DNA of 64,000 nt. Source: Subsaximicrobium wynnwilliamsii. GTDB lineage: Bacteria; Bacteroidota; Bacteroidia; Flavobacteriales; Flavobacteriaceae. This document shows positions 1 through 37,686 of this stretch, piece after piece (position 1 is the stretch's first letter; each line of letters opens with the position of its first letter). Under the pieces are notes generated by a model, which worked only from the letters and a program-made list of their open reading frames with translations, was not told the DNA's origin and did not search any database. The translations under genes were made by a program, and so were the position numbers. Location: NCBI RefSeq assembly GCF_007997225.1, contig NZ_VORM01000019.1:1-64000 (forward strand), in the 5' to 3' direction.

Positions 1-171
1 GATGTTGGTGTTTTCCACCAACATCTTCTCGTTTTACGAAAACCTGACGCTTTTACTTCCCAATATTTGATTCACTTAAACTATTTGATAATTCAATTTC
101 CCATATCCCAACTGGCTTGATCGTAGATAGCAAAAAGACCTCACAGGTTTTGGAAACCTGTGAGGTCTGAT
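1..171. repeat. 170-bp direct repeat, copy 1 (continues off left edge)
   Basis: Nearly the same ~170-bp sequence occurs again at 705-875. It opens with a hairpin (GATGTTGGTG, loop TTTTC, CACCAACATC at 1-25) and ends with the 33-base palindrome at 136-168. The copies differ at scattered single positions. The left end may extend outside the window. No coding signal seen. Confidence 0.85.
136..168. repeat. 33-base perfect palindrome, copy 1
   Basis: AGACCTCACAGGTTT, spacer TGG, AAACCTGTGAGGTCT: a 15-bp stem. The same element is at 840-872 and, with spacer TGA, at 5228-5260. Being intergenic, symmetrical and recurrent, it looks like a dispersed REP-like element. It could act as a bidirectional terminator hairpin, but a T-run is not consistently present. 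Confidence 0.85.
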
Positions 172-704: not shown

Positions 705-875
705 GATGTTGGTGTTTTCCACCAACATCTTCTCGTTTTACGAAAACCTGACGCTTTTACTGCCCAATATTTGATTCACTTGAACTATTTAATCATTCAA
801 TTTCCCATTTCTTAATTGGCTTGATCGTAGATAACAAAAAGACCTCACAGGTTTTGGAAACCTGTGAGGTCTGAT
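705..875. repeat. 170-bp direct repeat, copy 2
   Basis: Second copy of the 1-171 repeat. It starts with the hairpin GATGTTGGTG-TTTTC-CACCAACATC at 705-729 and ends with the 33-base palindrome at 840-872. It lies about 90 bp past the stop codon of the minus-strand T9SS cargo gene. Confidence 0.85.
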
Positions 876-4789: not shown

Positions 4790-5201
4790 GGTGCAATACC
4801 CACAATGCCGTGAACGCTTAAACATCGTGCTAAGTTGTTGGTGGAAAACACCAACAAGGGCATAAATCCCGAATATCGTAAGCGCTTCAACATTGCGCTA
4901 GGTTGTTGGTGGAAAACACCAACAACGGCAAAATTCCTGAATAGTGGGACCGCTTCAACATTACACTAGGTTGTTGGTGGAAAACACCAACAAGGGCAAA
5001 ATCCCTGAATAGCGTGAACGCATAGACATTGCGATAGGTTGTTGGTGGAAAACACCAACAACGGCAAAATTCCTGAATAGTGGGAACGCTTCAACATCGC
5101 GCTAGGTTGTTGGTGGAGAACACCGACAACGGCAAAATCCCTGAATAGTGGGAACGCATAGACATTGCACTAAGTTGTTGGTGGAAAACACCAACAACGG
5201 C
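4790..5201. repeat. 68-bp tandem hairpin array, six units
   Basis: Hairpins TTGTTGGTG-GAAAA-CACCAACAA start at 4835, 4903, 4971, 5039, 5107 and 5175, exactly 68 bp apart. Between them lie near-identical spacers (CGGCAAAATTCCTGAATAG, GGGAACGC...). The unit at 5107 carries changes (GGAGAA loop, CACCGAC) that keep the stem through a wobble pair. It has the same core hairpin as the array at 11892-14328. The spacers are conserved, so this is not a CRISPR. A decayed relative may lie at 4660-4720. Confidence 0.9.
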
Positions 5202-5227
5202 AACGAACGTCGGCAATGCAATTAAAA

Positions 5228-11254: not shown

Positions 11255-11303
11255 CAGCCTTAAATCAGCATTCCGTTTTTTACGGAACACAAAAACCCAT
11301 TTG

Positions 11304-11813
11304 ATGGAACCAAGAACTGCATTTCAATCCAAAACCATCATGACCGATATGGTCTTGCCTAGTGAAACCAACCCGATCAACAACCTTTTTGGTGGTGAGT
11401 TATTGGCGCGTATGGATCGAGCTGCCAGTATTGCTGCGAGACGCCATAGCCGACGTATTGTGGTGACCGCCTCTGTAAATCACGTGGCGTTTAACCGCTC
11501 AGTGCCCTTAGGCAGTGTGGTGACCATTGAGGCGAAAGTCTCTCGGGCCTTCACGAGTTCTATGGAAGTGTATATGGATGTTTGGATAGAAGACCGCGAG
11601 TCTGGAGAGTGCATCAAGGCCAACGAGGCCATCTACACCTTTGTGGCGGTTGATGATACCGGAAGACCTGTGAAAGTGCCAGATTTGCTTCCTGAGACGG
11701 AGCTAGAGAAACAACGCTACGAAGCCGCATTGCGACGCAAGCAGTTGAGCTTGGTGTTGGCGGGTAAAATGAAACCTTCTGAAGCTACGGAATTGAAGGC
11801 CTTGTTTGAGTAA
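11304..11813 (+). CDS. acyl-CoA thioesterase, hotdog fold (YciA/BACH-like)
   Basis: Hydrolyses acyl-CoA to free acid and CoA in the cytoplasm. The 169-residue protein has the family signature ETNPINNLFGGELLARMDRA (about 21-40); the Asp in MDRA (residue 38) is at the usual catalytic position. A single hotdog domain (about 8-130) is followed by a helical tail. The start is placed on the ATG at 11304; a TTG directly before it (11301) is in frame but not needed. The gene is monocistronic between the HU/SPOR gene and the hairpin array. Substrate chain length cannot be read from the sequence. Confidence 0.9.
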   Translation: MEPRTAFQSKTIMTDMVLPSETNPINNLFGGELLARMDRAASIAARRHSRRIVVTASVNHVAFNRSVPLGSVVTIEAKVSRAFTSSMEVYMDVWIEDRESGECIKANEAIYTFVAVDDTGRPVKVPDLLPETELEKQRYEAALRRKQLSLVLAGKMKPSEATELKALFE

Positions 11814-11891
11814 ATTCTGGGTTTTAGAATTAAGACCGTTAGTATTAAGACTGCTGAGCTTTTAGAATTAAGAACAAAGACTATTTCCAGT

Positions 11892-14328
11892 GTTGGTGTT
11901 TTCCACCAACAATCACGTTCGAGTAAGACTGAAGCTCAAGCTGAAACGCGTTTTATCCAGCTTTTGTAATTATGCCATTGTTGGTGTTTTCCACCAACAA
12001 TCACGTTCGAGTTAGGCTGAAGCTCAAGCTGAAACGCGTTTTCAATCGGCTTTAAGAAGAGAAACCTATCTCCATCGGATATCATCAAATTCGGGCTGTT
12101 GGTGGAAAACACCAACATCGGCATTCTGGATCTTTTCAGAATAACGCAGATGCAAAAAAGCGAGACGGCAATCTCCTAATTCTATTGGATTTTAATGGAT
12201 GAACTAAATTGTCATTGTTGGTGTTTTTTACCAACAATGACTTGCGAGTTAGGCTGAAGCTCAAACTGAAACGTGTTTTCAATCGGCTTTGGAAAGTGAA
12301 CCTATGCCCATCGGATATCATCACATTCGGGCTGTTGGTGGAAAACACTAACATCGGCCTTCTGGCAGTTTGCAGAATAACGCAGACGCAAAAAAGCGAG
12401 TCGGTAATCCCTAATTCTATTGAATTCTTATCGTTGAATGCACTGTCATTGTTGGTGTTTTTTACCAACAATGACTTGCGAGTTAGGCTGAAGCTCAAGC
12501 TAAAACGTGTTTTCAATGGGCTTTTTTAATAATAACTTAAGTTAATCGGGTATCATCACATTCGAAGCTGTTGGTGGAAAACACTAACATCGGCCTTCTG
12601 GCAGTTTGCAGAATAATGTAGACGCAAAAAAGCGAGTCGGTAATCCCTAATTCTATTGAATTCTTATCGTTGAATGCACTGTCATTGTTGGTGTTTTTTA
12701 CCAACAATGACTTGCGAGTTAGGCTGAAGCTCAAGCTAAAACGTGTTTTCAATCGGCTTTGGAAAGTGAACCTATGCCCAGCGGATATCATCAAATTCGG
12801 GCTGTTGGTGGAAAACACCAACATCGGCATTCTGGAACTTTTCAGAATAACGCAGATGCAAAAAAGTGAGTCGGCAATCCCCTAATTCTATTGGATTTTA
12901 CTCGATCAACTAAACTGCCATTGTTGGTGTTTTTCACCAACAATCACGTTCGAGTTAGGCTGAAGCTCAAACTGAAGCTCGTTTTTATCCAGCTTTTGCG
13001 TTAATAGCTTAAGTCCATCAGATATCATCAAATTCGAAGCTGTTGGTGGAAAACACCAACATCGGCTTTCTAGAACTTTTCAGAATCACGCAGATGCAAA
13101 AACGCGAGTCGGCAATCCCCTAATTCTATTGGATTTTAATGGATGAATTGAACTGCCATTGTTGGTGTTTTCCACCAACAATCACGCCCGAGTAAGGCTG
13201 AGCTCAAACTGAAGCATGTTTTCAACCAGCTTTTACGTTAATAGCTTAAGTCCATCAGATATCATCAAATTCGAAGCTGTTGGTGGAAAACACCAACATC
13301 GGCATTCTGGAACTTTTCAGAATAATGCAGACGCAAAAAAGCGAGTCGGTAATCCCTAATTCTATTGGATTTTATCGATGAATGAGCTGCCATTGTTGGT
13401 GTTTTCCACCAACAATCACGCTCGAGTAAGACTGAAGCTCAAGCTGAAACGTGTTTTCAATCGGCTTTGGAAAGTGAACCTATGCCCAGCGGATATCATC
13501 AAATTTGGGCTGTTGGTGGAAAACACCAACATCGGCATTCTGGAACTTTTCAGAATAACGCAGATGCAAAAAAGTGAGTCGGCAATCCCCTAACTCTATT
13601 GGATTTTAATGGATGAATTGAACTGCCATTGTTGGTGTTTTCCACCAACAATCACGTTCGAGTTAGGCTGAAGCTCAAGCTGAAACGCGTTTTCAATGGG
13701 CTTTTTTAATAATAACTTAAGTTTATCGGGTATCATCACATTCGAAGCTGTTGGTGGAAAACACCAACATCGGCTTTCTGGAACTTTTCAGAATCACGCA
13801 GATGCAAAAACGCGAGTCGGCAATCCCTTAACCCTATTGGATTTTACTCGATCAACTAAACTGCCATTGTTGGTGTTTTTCACCAACAATCACGCTCGAG
13901 TAAGACTGAAGCTCAAGCTGAAACGTGTTTTCAATCGGCTTTGGAAAGTGAACCTATGCCCAGCGGATATCATCAAATTTGGGCTGTTGGTGGAAAACAC
14001 CAACATCGGCATTCTGGAACTTTTCAGAATAATGCAGACGCAAAAGGTAAGCCGGATATCATCAAATTCGAAGCTGTTGGTGGAAAACACAGCATCGGCA
14101 TTCTGGATCTTTTCAGAATCACGCAGACGCAAAAAAGCGAGTCGGTAATCCCTAATTCTATTGGATTTTTATCGATCAACTAAACTGCCATTGTTGGTGT
14201 TTTCCACCAACAATCACGTTCGAGTAAGGCTGAAGCTCAAACTGAAACGCGTTTTATCCAGCTTTTGTAATAATAGTTTAAGTCCATCGGGTATCATCAA
14301 ATTCGGGCTGTTGGTGGAAAACACCAAC
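11892..14328. repeat. array of 22 alternating hairpins, ~118-bp pitch (~236-bp double unit)
   Basis: Hairpins GTTGGTGTTTTCCACCAAC start at 11892, 11980, 12217, 12451, 12687, 12923, 13161, 13395, 13631, 13869 and 14193. The reverse-complement type, GTTGGTGGAAAACACCAAC, starts at 12098, 12334, 12570, 12804, 13042, 13279, 13512, 13750, 13986, 14076 (damaged) and 14310. From 11980 on they strictly alternate at 116-119 bp, except around the damaged copy, where the step is 90 bp. Two distinct spacer types alternate, and one has several mosaic variants. Stem changes often keep pairing (TTTTTTACCAAC, CACTAAC). Open frames cross it on both strands because the units lack stops; I do not call them genes. 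The surrounding gap 11814-14478 holds nothing else. Confidence 0.93.
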
Positions 14329-14478
14329 ATCGGCTTTCTAGAACTTTTCAGAATAAACGTGTAGAAATCGGTACTTCGCTCAAATTTATCGAATAAGCTC
14401 AATTTTAGTGTTTTATCACTTCCGCAGAAACAAATACAAATCACTTCTCACTCATCCACTTAATTTAATGTAGCACAA

Positions 14479-15699
14479 TCACATCTTATAAATCCAATAC
14501 GCCGGATTTTGAGAATTGGAATCTTTATAAATCCCGAAACCTAACATGCTCTCGCCATTGCTGTCTGTAAAGACCTCGCCAATTTCTTGATTGGTCTCTA
14601 CGATATCCCCTTGCTTGACATAAATTTTTGACAGGTTTTTATAAATGGTCAAATAGTTACCATGTCTCAGCATCACAATGGGATTTGAGTTTTTAATGAG
14701 GATGATTTTAGACACCTCCCCTTTGAAGACCGCACGCACTTTAGCATTTTTTTCGGTAGCGATCCTTACGCCGTTATTTTTGATTTTTACCGTTGGGTCA
14801 ATCGGCGAGGGTTGCGTGCCATAGCCTAACTTAACCACTCCTTTTTCTACTGGCCAAGGTAAATTGCCTTTATTGGCCTCAAATTTCTGGGCTACCAATT
14901 TGGCTTCTGGCGTCAAGGCAAAAGCGCTCGAAGTAGTCGATTTCCCAGCTTTTTTGTTAGATTCGGCAATGGCTTCCTTAATAATGCGATCTATTTCCTG
15001 GTCGATCTTATCGATTTCCTGTTGGGTTTTCTTGATTTTTGAGGCATAGGAACTCATGTTTTTTCTAATGGAAGCCATGAGTTTTTCCTGCTGCTTGAGT
15101 TCTATTTCCAATTCTGCCTTCGCCGTTCTGTTTTCAACAATCAATTGATCCTTATCCTTTTTTTGGCGCAATAGGTCGGTGTTGAGCTCTTGTAGCTTTA
15201 CTGTTTTTACTTTGATGAGTTCGCCCTGTTCCTTTTGGTAATTGGCGTACTGCTTAATGTATTGCAAACGTTTGTAGGCCTGCTTAAAATTATCGGACGA
15301 TAAGAGAAACATCACTTTACTCTGCTCAGATTTGCTCTTATACGATTTGACCACCATGGCGGCATAGGTCGCTTTAAGCTCTTTCAATTGATCCCGTAAG
15401 CTGGAGATCTCATTTTGATTGGCGTTGATTTCACGAGTCAGCAAATTGGCTTGATCGTTGGTCACTCTTATCAAGTTACGTCGCACACTCACTTTGTAGT
15501 TGAGATCCTCAACCGAAGAAAGCATCGACTTCTCTTTTTTCTTATCGGTAAACAGCAAAGTGTTCAATTGTGCCAATTCCTTTTTGAACTTGAGACGCTT
15601 GGCCTCCAAGGCTTGTTGTTTTGGGCTTTGGGCGTTCACAATACAAGTACTTGCCAGTAGGCAAACCATGATAAACAAAAGTCTCGTGTTATTTAACAT
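14479..15699 (-). CDS. EnvC-like murein hydrolase activator, coiled coil plus degenerate LytM/M23 domain
   Basis: Periplasmic protein of 406 residues. A signal peptide (1-23, ending IVNAQ) is followed by a long coiled coil (about 25-255), the layout of EnvC, which activates amidases at the septum. The C-terminal LytM/M23 domain (about 285-406) lacks the zinc ligands of active M23 enzymes: the first His motif reads NNGVRI, HGNYLTIYKNL has lost the second His, and the final HxH position reads MLGFGI. This fits a non-enzymatic activator. Its start overlaps the end of the DUF4292 gene by 11 bp, and a TPR gene lies upstream, so the three probably form one transcript. Amidase partner not in the window. 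Confidence 0.88.
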   Translation of the reverse strand: MLNNTRLLFIMVCLLASTCIVNAQSPKQQALEAKRLKFKKELAQLNTLLFTDKKKEKSMLSSVEDLNYKVSVRRNLIRVTNDQANLLTREINANQNEISSLRDQLKELKATYAAMVVKSYKSKSEQSKVMFLLSSDNFKQAYKRLQYIKQYANYQKEQGELIKVKTVKLQELNTDLLRQKKDKDQLIVENRTAKAELEIELKQQEKLMASIRKNMSSYASKIKKTQQEIDKIDQEIDRIIKEAIAESNKKAGKSTTSSAFALTPEAKLVAQKFEANKGNLPWPVEKGVVKLGYGTQPSPIDPTVKIKNNGVRIATEKNAKVRAVFKGEVSKIILIKNSNPIVMLRHGNYLTIYKNLSKIYVKQGDIVETNQEIGEVFTDSNGESMLGFGIYKDSNSQNPAYWIYKM

Positions 15700-22942: not shown

Positions 22943-23029
22943 TATTTGGTTTTTTTACGTATCTCTTTTCAAATATTGATCAGAGCGGCTGTTGCTGCGA
23001 TTGAAAAATTTGCTCTTAGCCAATTGTCG

Positions 23030-23480
23030 CATCTGCGCGGTTGAGAAATTTGGCTCCGCTCCCGCTGCGCCTAATCACTCAACGCATCTGCGCGGTTGAG
23101 AAATTTGGCTCCGCTCACGCTGCGCCTAATCACTCAGCGCATCTGCGCGGTTGAGAAATTTGGCTCCGCTCACGCTGCGCCCAATCACTCAGCGCATCTG
23201 CGCGGTTGAGAAATTTGGCTCCGCTCACGCTGCGCCCAATCACTCAGCGCATCTGCGCGGTTGAGAAATTTGGCTCCGCTCCCGCTGCGCCTAATCACTC
23301 AGCGCATCTGCGCGGTTTAGAAATTTGGCTCCGCTCCCGCTGCGCCTAATCACTCAGCGCATCTGCGCGGTTGAGAAATTTGGCTCCGCTCCCGCTGCGC
23401 CTAATCACTCAGCGCATCTGCGCGGTTTAGAAATTTGGCTCCGCTCCCGCTGCGCCTAATCACTCAGCGCATCTGCGCCT
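23030..23480. repeat. 55-bp tandem array derived from the 3' end of atpG
   Basis: Units starting CATCTGCGC begin at 23030, 23085, 23140, 23195, 23250, 23305, 23360 and 23415, exactly 55 bp apart. The ninth start, 23470, lies inside the atpG coding end. On the minus strand each unit repeats GCGCAGATGCGCTGAGTGAT, the last codons of atpG, then TAG and about 30 bases of downstream DNA. Single-base variants distinguish units (CCCGC/CACGC, CCTAAT/CCCAAT, GTTGAG/GTTTAG). A decayed copy precedes at about 22985-23029. Confidence 0.95.
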
Positions 23481-36570: not shown

Positions 36571-37626
36571 ATGTCACATTTCCATAAGCTTTCCATAGCG
36601 AAAGTCACTCGCGAAACCTCCAATGCAGTAACCCTAAATTTTGACGTACCTGCCCATTTAAAAGCAGACTATGCCTATAAAGCCGGACAATACATCACAC
36701 TAAAAACCCATATCAATGGCATTGAAGTAAGACGTGATTATTCGCTGTGCTCTTCGCCAAAAAGCGGCCTCCTGCAGGTTGCTGTTAAAGAAGTGGCCGA
36801 AGGTATATTCTCTGCACATGCCAATACGCACCTGCAAGTAGGAGATGAATTGGAGGTGGCACCGCCTAAAGGTAGGTTTGTATTTGAGCCCAATGACAAT
36901 AAAACGAAAAATATAGCACTCTTTGCAGCTGGAAGCGGGATTACTCCAATCTTGAGCATCATCAAATGTGCTTTGGAAGAAGAAGTGCTCAGTAAAGTCA
37001 TCTTGGTTTATGGCAATAAAACGACCGAAGATACCATGTTCTTGAAATCGCTTTTAGCGTTGCAAAAACAATATCACGAGCGGTTTTCCATACAGTTTGT
37101 ATTTAGCCAGGCCGATGAAGACAACGCCATTTTTGGACGTATTGAAAAGAGCACCGTCAATTATGTGATGAAGAACAAGCACAAGCATATTGATGTGGAT
37201 GCCTACTATCTCTGCGGTCCCGAAGGCATGATTTTCGCAGTGAAAGATGTTTTGCTCGCCAACGATGTGGACGAGAATCGCGTACATTTTGAACTCTTCA
37301 AAGCGGCGAAACCCATCGAAACCAATGATACAGGCATAACCGATGGCAAAACCAAGGTCAAAGTAATGTTAGACGATGAGACTTTTGATTTCGAAATGTC
37401 GCAAAATCAAACCATTTTGGAGGCTGCCTTAGATGAGGATCTTGATGCACCCTACTCTTGCCAAGGTGGCATTTGCAGCAGTTGCATCGCCCGAATTACT
37501 GAAGGTGAAGCTACCATGCGCCAAAACAACATACTTACCGATGCCGAGTTGAAGGAAGGCCTTATTTTGACTTGCCAAGCGCAACCCACTACAGAGACGA
37601 TCACGGTGGATTATGATGACGTGTGA
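36571..37626 (+). CDS. PaaE-like FAD/NAD(P)H oxidoreductase with 2Fe-2S ferredoxin domain
   Basis: 351 residues in three parts. The FAD-binding barrel is at about 1-105 (RRDYSLCSSP), the NAD(P)H-binding domain at about 105-240 (FAAGSGITPILSI, YLCGPEGMI), and a plant-type ferredoxin at about 260-351 with ligands in APYSCQGGICSSC and LTCQAQ (Cys-x4-Cys-x2-Cys...Cys). It passes electrons from NAD(P)H to an oxygenase or other partner. The subunits of phenylacetyl-CoA oxygenase are not next to it, so the partner is unknown. Directly followed by a G-rich repeat. Confidence 0.9.
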   Translation: MSHFHKLSIAKVTRETSNAVTLNFDVPAHLKADYAYKAGQYITLKTHINGIEVRRDYSLCSSPKSGLLQVAVKEVAEGIFSAHANTHLQVGDELEVAPPKGRFVFEPNDNKTKNIALFAAGSGITPILSIIKCALEEEVLSKVILVYGNKTTEDTMFLKSLLALQKQYHERFSIQFVFSQADEDNAIFGRIEKSTVNYVMKNKHKHIDVDAYYLCGPEGMIFAVKDVLLANDVDENRVHFELFKAAKPIETNDTGITDGKTKVKVMLDDETFDFEMSQNQTILEAALDEDLDAPYSCQGGICSSCIARITEGEATMRQNNILTDAELKEGLILTCQAQPTTETITVDYDDV

Positions 37627-37634
37627 GGTTGGGA

Positions 37635-37686
37635 GTTGTGGGTTGTGGGTTGTGGGTTGTGGGTTGTGGGTTGTGGGTTGTGGGTT
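37635..37686. repeat. GTTGTGG heptamer microsatellite, G-quadruplex-like
   Basis: Seven GTTGTGG copies plus GTT (37635-37686), starting 9 bases after the stop of the oxidoreductase gene. On the plus strand there are at least six GGG runs separated by TTGT, a pattern able to form a G-quadruplex. The rest of 37687-37879 is AT-rich with no gene seen. Confidence 0.85.

Follow-up and report, generated by a model that had tools for sequence, protein, structure and literature searches.

The 22 hairpins at positions 11892–14328 of the window, by which we mean the whole 64,000-nucleotide stretch of Subsaximicrobium wynnwilliamsii DNA analysed here, very probably form a BIME-type cluster of non-autonomous REPs, whose most likely history is mobilisation by a RAYT acting in trans, followed by local amplification and recombination. 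The alternation of the hairpins is in itself not new. The preliminary description knew of no element of this kind, but BIMEs have been described as regularly spaced REPs in alternating orientation, including those of Xanthomonas campestris (PMC2817692), and ordered arrays are known from P. fluorescens (PMC3116915). What the present analysis adds is the REP family with a GCC foot, the RAYT clade which accompanies it, the long arrays, and the series of arrays found at lptB.

A search of the 64-kb window for GTTGGTG-N5-CACCAAC with up to two mismatches gave 29 matches, compared to 0.15 expected from 100 shuffles, and 21 of these fall at 11892–14328 (Table 1). The 22nd site, GTTGGTGGAAAACACAGC, starts at 14076 and is a broken copy recognised by eye. 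The count of 22 hairpins in 2.4 kb given in the preliminary description is thus borne out as 21 clear sites and one degenerate one, and is far above chance. The array is composed of 11 type A hairpins (+ strand) and 11 type B hairpins (− strand), and both orientations, like both of the conserved spacer types that had been reported, were found. Orientation alternates in 19 of the 21 steps between neighbours, all of them 116–119 bp long (10 A-to-B and 9 B-to-A), and the step following the degenerate hairpin measures 117 bp. The alternation is however not strict as had been stated, since the steps 11892–11980 (+,+; 88 bp) and 13986–14076 (−,−; 90 bp) depart from it in both orientation and length. 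The spacers of these two steps look like the start of one spacer type fused to the final part of the other, which is what the loss of one hairpin along with its surroundings would leave. Tandem Repeats Finder describes 11973–14045 as a 236-bp unit repeated 8.8 times or a 470-bp unit repeated 4.4 times, which makes the alternation a property of the repeated two-hairpin unit. The mosaic nature of the spacers was confirmed by the four-gamete test, which 117 of 378 informative-site pairs fail for the A–B spacers and 44 of 190 for the B–A spacers. Left and right spacer halves are also swapped between units (12451 compared with 13631, for instance, or 12687 with 13395), and together these results point to recombination between the units of the array. 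Both of the features by which BIMEs are recognised, regular spacing with alternating orientation (in 19 of 21 steps) and mosaic spacers, are hence present.

Apart from the broken copy at 14076, five copies carry one stem substitution each; in two of them the resulting stem, GTTAGTG/CACCAAC, has a G-T pair on one strand and an A-C mismatch on the other. Type A copies read GCCATT-hairpin-AAT, with GTCATT in three copies and TCCAGT in the first one, and type B copies read GCCGAT-hairpin-AGC on the − strand.

Table 1 Features of the array and of its surroundings in the window.
Feature	Position	Strand	Remark
BIME-like array, 22 REP hairpins	11892..14328	both	two-hairpin unit of ~236 bp
REP type A, first of array	11886..11913	+	foot TCC, outer stem AGT/AAT
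REP type A	11974..12001	+	GCC foot
REP type B	12095..12122	−	GCC foot
REP type A	12211..12238	+	foot GTC
REP type B	12331..12358	−	stem GTTAGTG/CACCAAC
REP type A	12445..12472	+	foot GTC
REP type B	12567..12594	−	stem GTTAGTG/CACCAAC
REP type A	12681..12708	+	foot GTC
REP type B	12801..12828	−	
REP type A	12917..12944	+	
REP type B	13039..13066	−	
REP type A	13155..13182	+	
REP type B	13276..13303	−	
REP type A	13389..13416	+	
REP type B	13509..13536	−	
REP type A	13625..13652	+	ssDNA fold: 10-bp stem with free 5' GCC
REP type B	13747..13774	−	
REP type A	13863..13890	+	
REP type B	13983..14010	−	
Degenerate REP type B, 22nd site	14073..14099	−	hairpin from 14076; by eye
REP type A	14187..14214	+	
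REP type B, last of array	14307..14334	−	
Second cluster, same REP family	4812..5203	−	6 hairpins, one orientation, 68-bp period
Single type B REP	4..22	+	contig start
Single type B REP	708..726	+	
Thioesterase-like flanking gene (PF03061)	11301..11813	+	converging on array
M23 peptidase flanking gene (PF01551)	14479..15699	−	converging on array

The full element reads GCC + NNTGTTGGTG-TTTTY-CACCAACANN; its stem of 10 bp closes a loop of 5 nt and is preceded by a GCC foot which stays unpaired on the 5' side. It occurs as two subtypes, A (GCCATT...AAT) and B (GCCGAT...ATC or AGC). Conservation was surveyed over 226 copies from 10 genomes, taken from the fetched stretches with at most three mismatches in the 19-nt core and leaving aside copies near locus ends or containing N. 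Outside the 7-bp core, the first three pairs are Watson–Crick in 213, 202 and 208 of these copies, compared to just 24 and 17 for the next two positions outward (4 and 5), and the three nucleotides of the foot are GCC in 200. The copies were gathered by their resemblance to the 19-nt core, which skews the inner seven pairs towards pairing in this survey; the foot and the three outer pairs are free of this bias. The letters of the outer stem change together (ATT/AAT, GAT/ATC, TTT/AAA, GTT/AAC, AAT/ATT, ACT/AGT). Among 70 distinct 25-mers, 60 two-sided changes were counted as opposed to 20.8 in shuffled sets, none of 500 of which reaches 60, and slid registers give at most 21. The changes are concentrated in the two outermost pairs (54 of the 60), and the number of pairs with a change on both sides is unexceptional (5 compared with 3.6, a value of 5 being reached by 84 of 500 shuffles). 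The earlier proposal that stem substitutions preserve pairing stands for the family as a whole, the stem of which covaries, and does not for the GTTAGTG/CACCAAC copies of the array, which are mismatched on one strand; the palindrome is constrained, as had been suggested, with its stem both retained and covarying across family copies. In folding predictions for single-stranded DNA, type A reaches −9.3 kcal/mol (z −4.3) and type B −8.9 kcal/mol (z −5.3), while a whole A-to-B unit forms a single long hairpin (z −5.2).

These properties are those of a REP, that is a multicopy palindrome of 20–50 nt with a conserved unpaired motif at its 5' foot and a mostly extragenic location. The hairpin is 25 nt long, its exact core occurs 119 times in the S. 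wynnwilliamsii genome, the foot motif is GCC, and the clusters lie between larger genes according to simple ORF calls. ORFs of up to 248 aa overlap some of the arrays, and one of 107 aa overlaps a single copy on contig C41; the ones inside arrays are judged to be spurious since they are built from the repeats themselves. When compared with the GTAG and CGTC foot motifs that define the two REP super-families (Di Nocera 2013), the GCC foot agrees with neither, and the family was therefore placed in neither of them. Rfam covariance models gave no match at gathering scores in the 64-kb window, and a search of viral contigs with the 21-bp pattern gave none either.

The 119 exact cores are evenly distributed between the strands (59 + and 60 −), and 116 of them could be located, 100 in the places listed and 16 on contig C96. 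Clusters and single hairpins are found on contigs C20, C25, C30, C41, C44, C47, C52, C66, C88 and C96. Spacing differs between clusters: 116–119 bp in the array of the window, 68 bp at 4812–5203, mainly 116, 255, 297 and 370 bp on C25, 112 and 128 bp on C47, 133 and 178 with 81 or 86 bp on C66, C96 and C52, and about 134 and 203 with 84 bp on C88. Irregular spacing, or stems varying freely without compensation, had been named beforehand as what would reduce the array to ordinary slippage repeats; spacing does vary between clusters and between genomes, while the stem does not vary freely and is kept. Among the BLAST matches listed, most clusters share the hairpin and 10–30 bp beside it only. 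The units of C88 and C96 are about 70–72% alike over 264–343 bp, which indicates that whole units have been moved or copied too. In the stretches of this genome that were surveyed, neighbouring hairpins up to 260 bp apart have their feet outside in 46 pairs, inside in 44, and are in direct orientation in 25. At 4.9 Mb, this genome is also larger than the 22 listed relatives of the genus (3.1–4.2 Mb). Outside of it, the exact core was found in three more genomes out of a set of 57 drawn from the genus, the family and the order (the own genome making four), with 33 copies in G017, 2 in G009 and 1 in G015. The 21-bp form of the hairpin was found in 7 of 397 sampled Flavobacteriaceae genomes, each from a different genus (the sample spans 237 genera). 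Two of these, G058 and G182, have 15 and 21 copies, of which 10 each are among the matches listed, so that part of their clusters was surveyed.

In the window, the array occupies the gap between convergent thioesterase-like and M23 peptidase genes, the latter of which has its closest named relatives mostly in Psychroserpens (68–77% identity). The order of the two genes is conserved, both being present in 48 of 57 relative loci with gaps of 7–1392 bp, and the hairpin (up to one mismatch) is absent from all 57 loci, including the 48 syntenic gaps. The orthologous gap of P. algicola (L070:9200–10600) carries 12 REPs of the CGTC type, which lie in both orientations and are separated by repeated spacers, as counted with a pattern of our own allowing up to four mismatches, and this gap has therefore acquired unrelated REP arrays at least twice. 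The same gap contains one CGTC-type pair in L071 and one copy in L072. Convergent gaps also house most of the large clusters of the S. wynnwilliamsii genome, namely four of the five with at least nine hairpins, one of them by way of the proposed contig order; gene context was here taken from simple ORF calls.

A candidate for the transposase was found in other genera. Genomes G362, G132 and G182 carry inverted hairpins on either side of a gene coding for a protein of 175–182 aa with an HxH and a YIHxNP motif. All three have hairpins on both sides, one of the six with one mismatch, so that the arrangement which defines a REPtron, the same REP flanking its cognate RAYT, is seen in three of three genomes; the S. 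wynnwilliamsii genome shows the 3' end of the gene only. RAYTs of this clade (E < 1e-50) were found in just these 3 of the 397 Flavobacteriaceae genomes, and all 3 are among the 7 positive for the hairpin, for which we calculate a chance of about 3e-6. The hairpin-flanked proteins form a 100/100 clade in a tree of 15 RAYTs. No hairpin was found at 12 of 13 more distant RAYT loci, and the remaining one (L179) has a two-mismatch hairpin about 0.9 kb away. Scores against family profiles are below cut-off, at 66.8 and 71.0 bits for NCBIfam NF047646 (REP-associated tyrosine transposase; cut-off 80) and 14.2 and 16.4 for Pfam PF01797 (cut-off 23). A fold model based on eight RAYTs (pLDDT 81.7) has as its best PDB match 4er8 (E 2.7e-8), a structure of the E. 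coli REP-associated tyrosine transposase in complex with a REP hairpin, and residues H60, H62 and Y136 are invariant across the eight aligned sequences. The hairpin-flanked protein is thus predicted to have the fold of a Y1 HUH transposase, with the HxH motif and a putative catalytic tyrosine.

RAYT group 5, or TnpA_Y1 subclass 2.6, is described for Bacteroidetes with an apparent length of 179 and the signature NH[LIV]H, WQ and YIH[QN]NP, its genes having 'atypical secondary structures' on their flanks, copies of which occur at other places in the genome (PMC6006769). The G132 protein (NHIH, WQ, YIHNNP, 179 aa) fits this description in length, motifs and flanking structures, while those of G362 (HHIH, WK, YIHQNP, 175 aa) and G182 (NHIH, WK, YIHENP, 182 aa) deviate at signature residues. 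Signature and length point tentatively to this subclass, two of the three proteins deviating from it at signature residues. The text of PMC6006769 gives the flanking structures without sequence, foot motif or arrays, and the family described here provides a concrete REP, with its sequence, foot, two subtypes and arrays, for a Bacteroidetes RAYT clade of the kind whose flanks were called atypical. Three of the 7 hairpin-positive family genomes, G058, G212 and G069, have no RAYT of the clade at E 1e-25, a threshold at which fragments as small as those of S. wynnwilliamsii would escape notice, and in G017, G009 and G015 a search at E 0.001 found none. Hairpin copies can accordingly persist without the RAYT. 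Two further frames were observed: locus L002 (C88:318159-321359 of the S. wynnwilliamsii genome) has a Y1 transposase domain in one open frame with a protein resembling, by eye, a DNA methylase/restriction enzyme, and with many in-frame REHAPLAEEEG-like repeats, and L003 has a RAYT-like frame with two NPVGTGRDLS repeats.

The part of the RAYT seen in S. wynnwilliamsii lies next to lptB, where tblastn aligned 35 C-terminal residues (60% identity) at the ends of both C66 and C96, each time at a distance of about 70 bp past a hairpin of type A. The body of the gene was not found in the assembly, nor was any RAYT found near the array of the window. The final 127 bases of C66 and C96 are identical, as are the first 127 bases of C96 and C52, both of which carry a type B hairpin. 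Since the contig ends share 127 bases, we infer that a segment repeated at least twice was dropped by an assembler working with k=127. The order of the locus would then be lptB – array (16) – RAYT – array (25) – RAYT – array (12) – DUF808, with A as the REP on the 3' side of the RAYT and B as the one on its 5' side. On this reading, the A–B unit of the array is a REPtron with a spacer in place of the gene.

Six genomes from three genera have a hairpin beside lptB, namely G362 (together with the RAYT), G058, S. wynnwilliamsii, G017, G009 and G015. DUF808 is on the other side in G362, G058, G009 and G017, and on C52 in S. wynnwilliamsii; none was seen in G015, the locus of which shows lptB and a scramblase-like gene. 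The number of hairpins at this place is 1 in G009, 1 in G015, 20 in G017, and 53 over three contigs in S. wynnwilliamsii. In G009 and G015, the single hairpin is located 25 bp behind the stop codon of the scramblase-like gene, and the first of the 20 copies of G017 is located 24 bp behind it (up to three mismatches, in a stretch containing 181 N). At this gene the hairpin is absent from the six other genomes of the genus in which the gene was found. The DNA around the hairpin differs among G009, G015 and G017 (L038, L039 and L061), and the hairpin on the scramblase side is either an old insertion under constraint or marks a preferred target. The simplest account of the series is an old resident copy, with arrays grown in two lineages and the RAYT lost in several, though repeated insertion at one target may alternatively have produced it. 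The locus offers a natural series (none, 1, 1, 20 and 53 hairpins) which is useful for asking how REP arrays grow.

By our preferred explanation, a RAYT encoded beside lptB in the same genome, between A and B hairpins, would mobilise the elements in trans. The candidate would be an HUH tyrosine transposase acting on single-stranded DNA. By analogy with the E. coli system (PMC8266576), it would bind the hairpin and foot motif on one strand, and its tyrosine would cut beside the hairpin and join the ends, by which REPs, singly and in pairs, would spread into intergenic DNA. Cutting and movement of the hairpins by this RAYT, with A and B as its two ends, are proposed here from sequence data. One A–B pair would have been seeded where the thioesterase and M23 peptidase genes converge, and would then, together with its spacers, have been multiplied in head-to-tail copies and shuffled by recombination, which would account for both the alternating hairpins and the mosaic spacers. 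Array growth, which probably took such a course, requires no transposase. It is rather unlikely, but conceivable, that the RAYT itself catalyses growth, working between an A and a B end and copying A–B pairs beside themselves in a peel-and-paste or rolling-circle style, with the arrays as the direct product of transposition rather than leftovers of recombination. Were this true, the REPtron would have been duplicated inside its own array at lptB, where the shared 127-base contig ends suggest at least two RAYT copies, and this would contrast with the usual single-copy, house-keeping behaviour of RAYTs.

Amplification without any transposase at all, by slippage or unequal exchange of a stretch that happens to bear a hairpin, would make the array a plain satellite. 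The tandem periods of 236 and 470 bp and the mosaic spacers agree with this, as do the different spacers of most clusters and the arrays of G017, a genome without detectable RAYT, and the account is probably correct for the final step, the local growth of the array. As an explanation for the whole it is improbable, because it fails to account for the occurrence of a single 21-bp hairpin in 7 of 237 genera and at many unlinked loci whose spacers are mostly unrelated, for the conservation of the unpaired GCC foot, and for the RAYT which this hairpin flanks in three of three genomes.

The location between convergent genes, shared by four of the five clusters with at least nine hairpins, could also suggest an array selected by the host for stopping convergent transcription, for protecting mRNA 3' ends, or as a nucleoid or gyrase site, and the hairpin which in G009, G015 and G017 follows one stop codon at 24–25 bp, amid differing surroundings, speaks in the same direction. 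We nevertheless consider this very unlikely given that all 48 syntenic gaps of relatives lack the hairpin. Terminator-like sites, moreover, number 1 in 11800–14480 compared to 2.7 expected, a count that does not support intrinsic terminators (G+C-rich hairpin followed by a T run). The nucleoid or replication-associated structure and the RNA source proposed in the preliminary description likewise found no support. Mobilisation by another Y1 transposase of the genome in place of the hairpin-flanked clade is hardly credible: six PF01797 loci do exist in S. wynnwilliamsii, but no hairpin (up to three mismatches) was found in the 8–12 kb around these genes (L055–L060), and G017 carries 33 hairpins with no PF01797 match. 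G009 and G015 have no such match either.

The elements treated here as BIME-forming REPs have much in common with those of E. coli, where BIMEs and REPs (y, z1 and z2) are associated with TnpA_REP and likewise form intergenic, inverted and often tandem mosaics of subtypes, with one cognate tnpA_REP adjoining REPs as the hairpin-flanked RAYT does here (PMC8266576, PMC2817692). They differ in the foot, which is GTAG in E. coli and GCC here, in the stem, which is bulged in E. coli and a perfect 10 bp in type A, and in the scale of the arrays, a single one of which holds 22 hairpins here, while those at lptB hold 53, spread over three contigs. In P. fluorescens SBW25, inverted REP pairs (REPINs) are the unit as they are here, ordered tandem arrays with fixed spacings of 112 and 72 bp resemble the array of the window, and some clusters adjoin RAYT genes (PMC3116915). 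Both the sequence and the RAYT are different in that strain, and the largest of its ordered GI–GIII tandem arrays contain up to 12 REPs according to the same source. CGTC REPs, which are palindromes with an 8–9 bp stem and a 4–5 nt loop, found mostly as tag-outside dimers and in Bacteroidetes among others (PMC3733652), resemble the present family as short-stem, small-loop palindromes of Bacteroidetes; their foot and sequence are different, and PMC3733652, as far as its description of them goes, reports no dedicated transposase, for which the family described here has a candidate. No published description of this hairpin family was found in the open-licence PubMed Central literature. The mode by which REPs spread has been called unresolved (PMC8266576), and a REP with a short perfect stem and a foot other than GTAG, co-occurring with a small RAYT, makes a good test pair for this question.

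Other repeats were also observed in the window. The second cluster of the family (4812–5203) sits between two large genes with weak, below-cut-off matches to Por secretion tails. At 167–511, a 112-bp unit is repeated 3.1 times and includes AATCTGTGTCATCTGTG, which we take to be a motif common in Bacteroidetes intergenic repeats. A 55-bp unit is repeated 8.2 times at 23028–23478 with 97% matches, and the heptamer TGTGGGT is repeated 9 times at 37622–37686, at the 3' end of the ORF 36571–37626.
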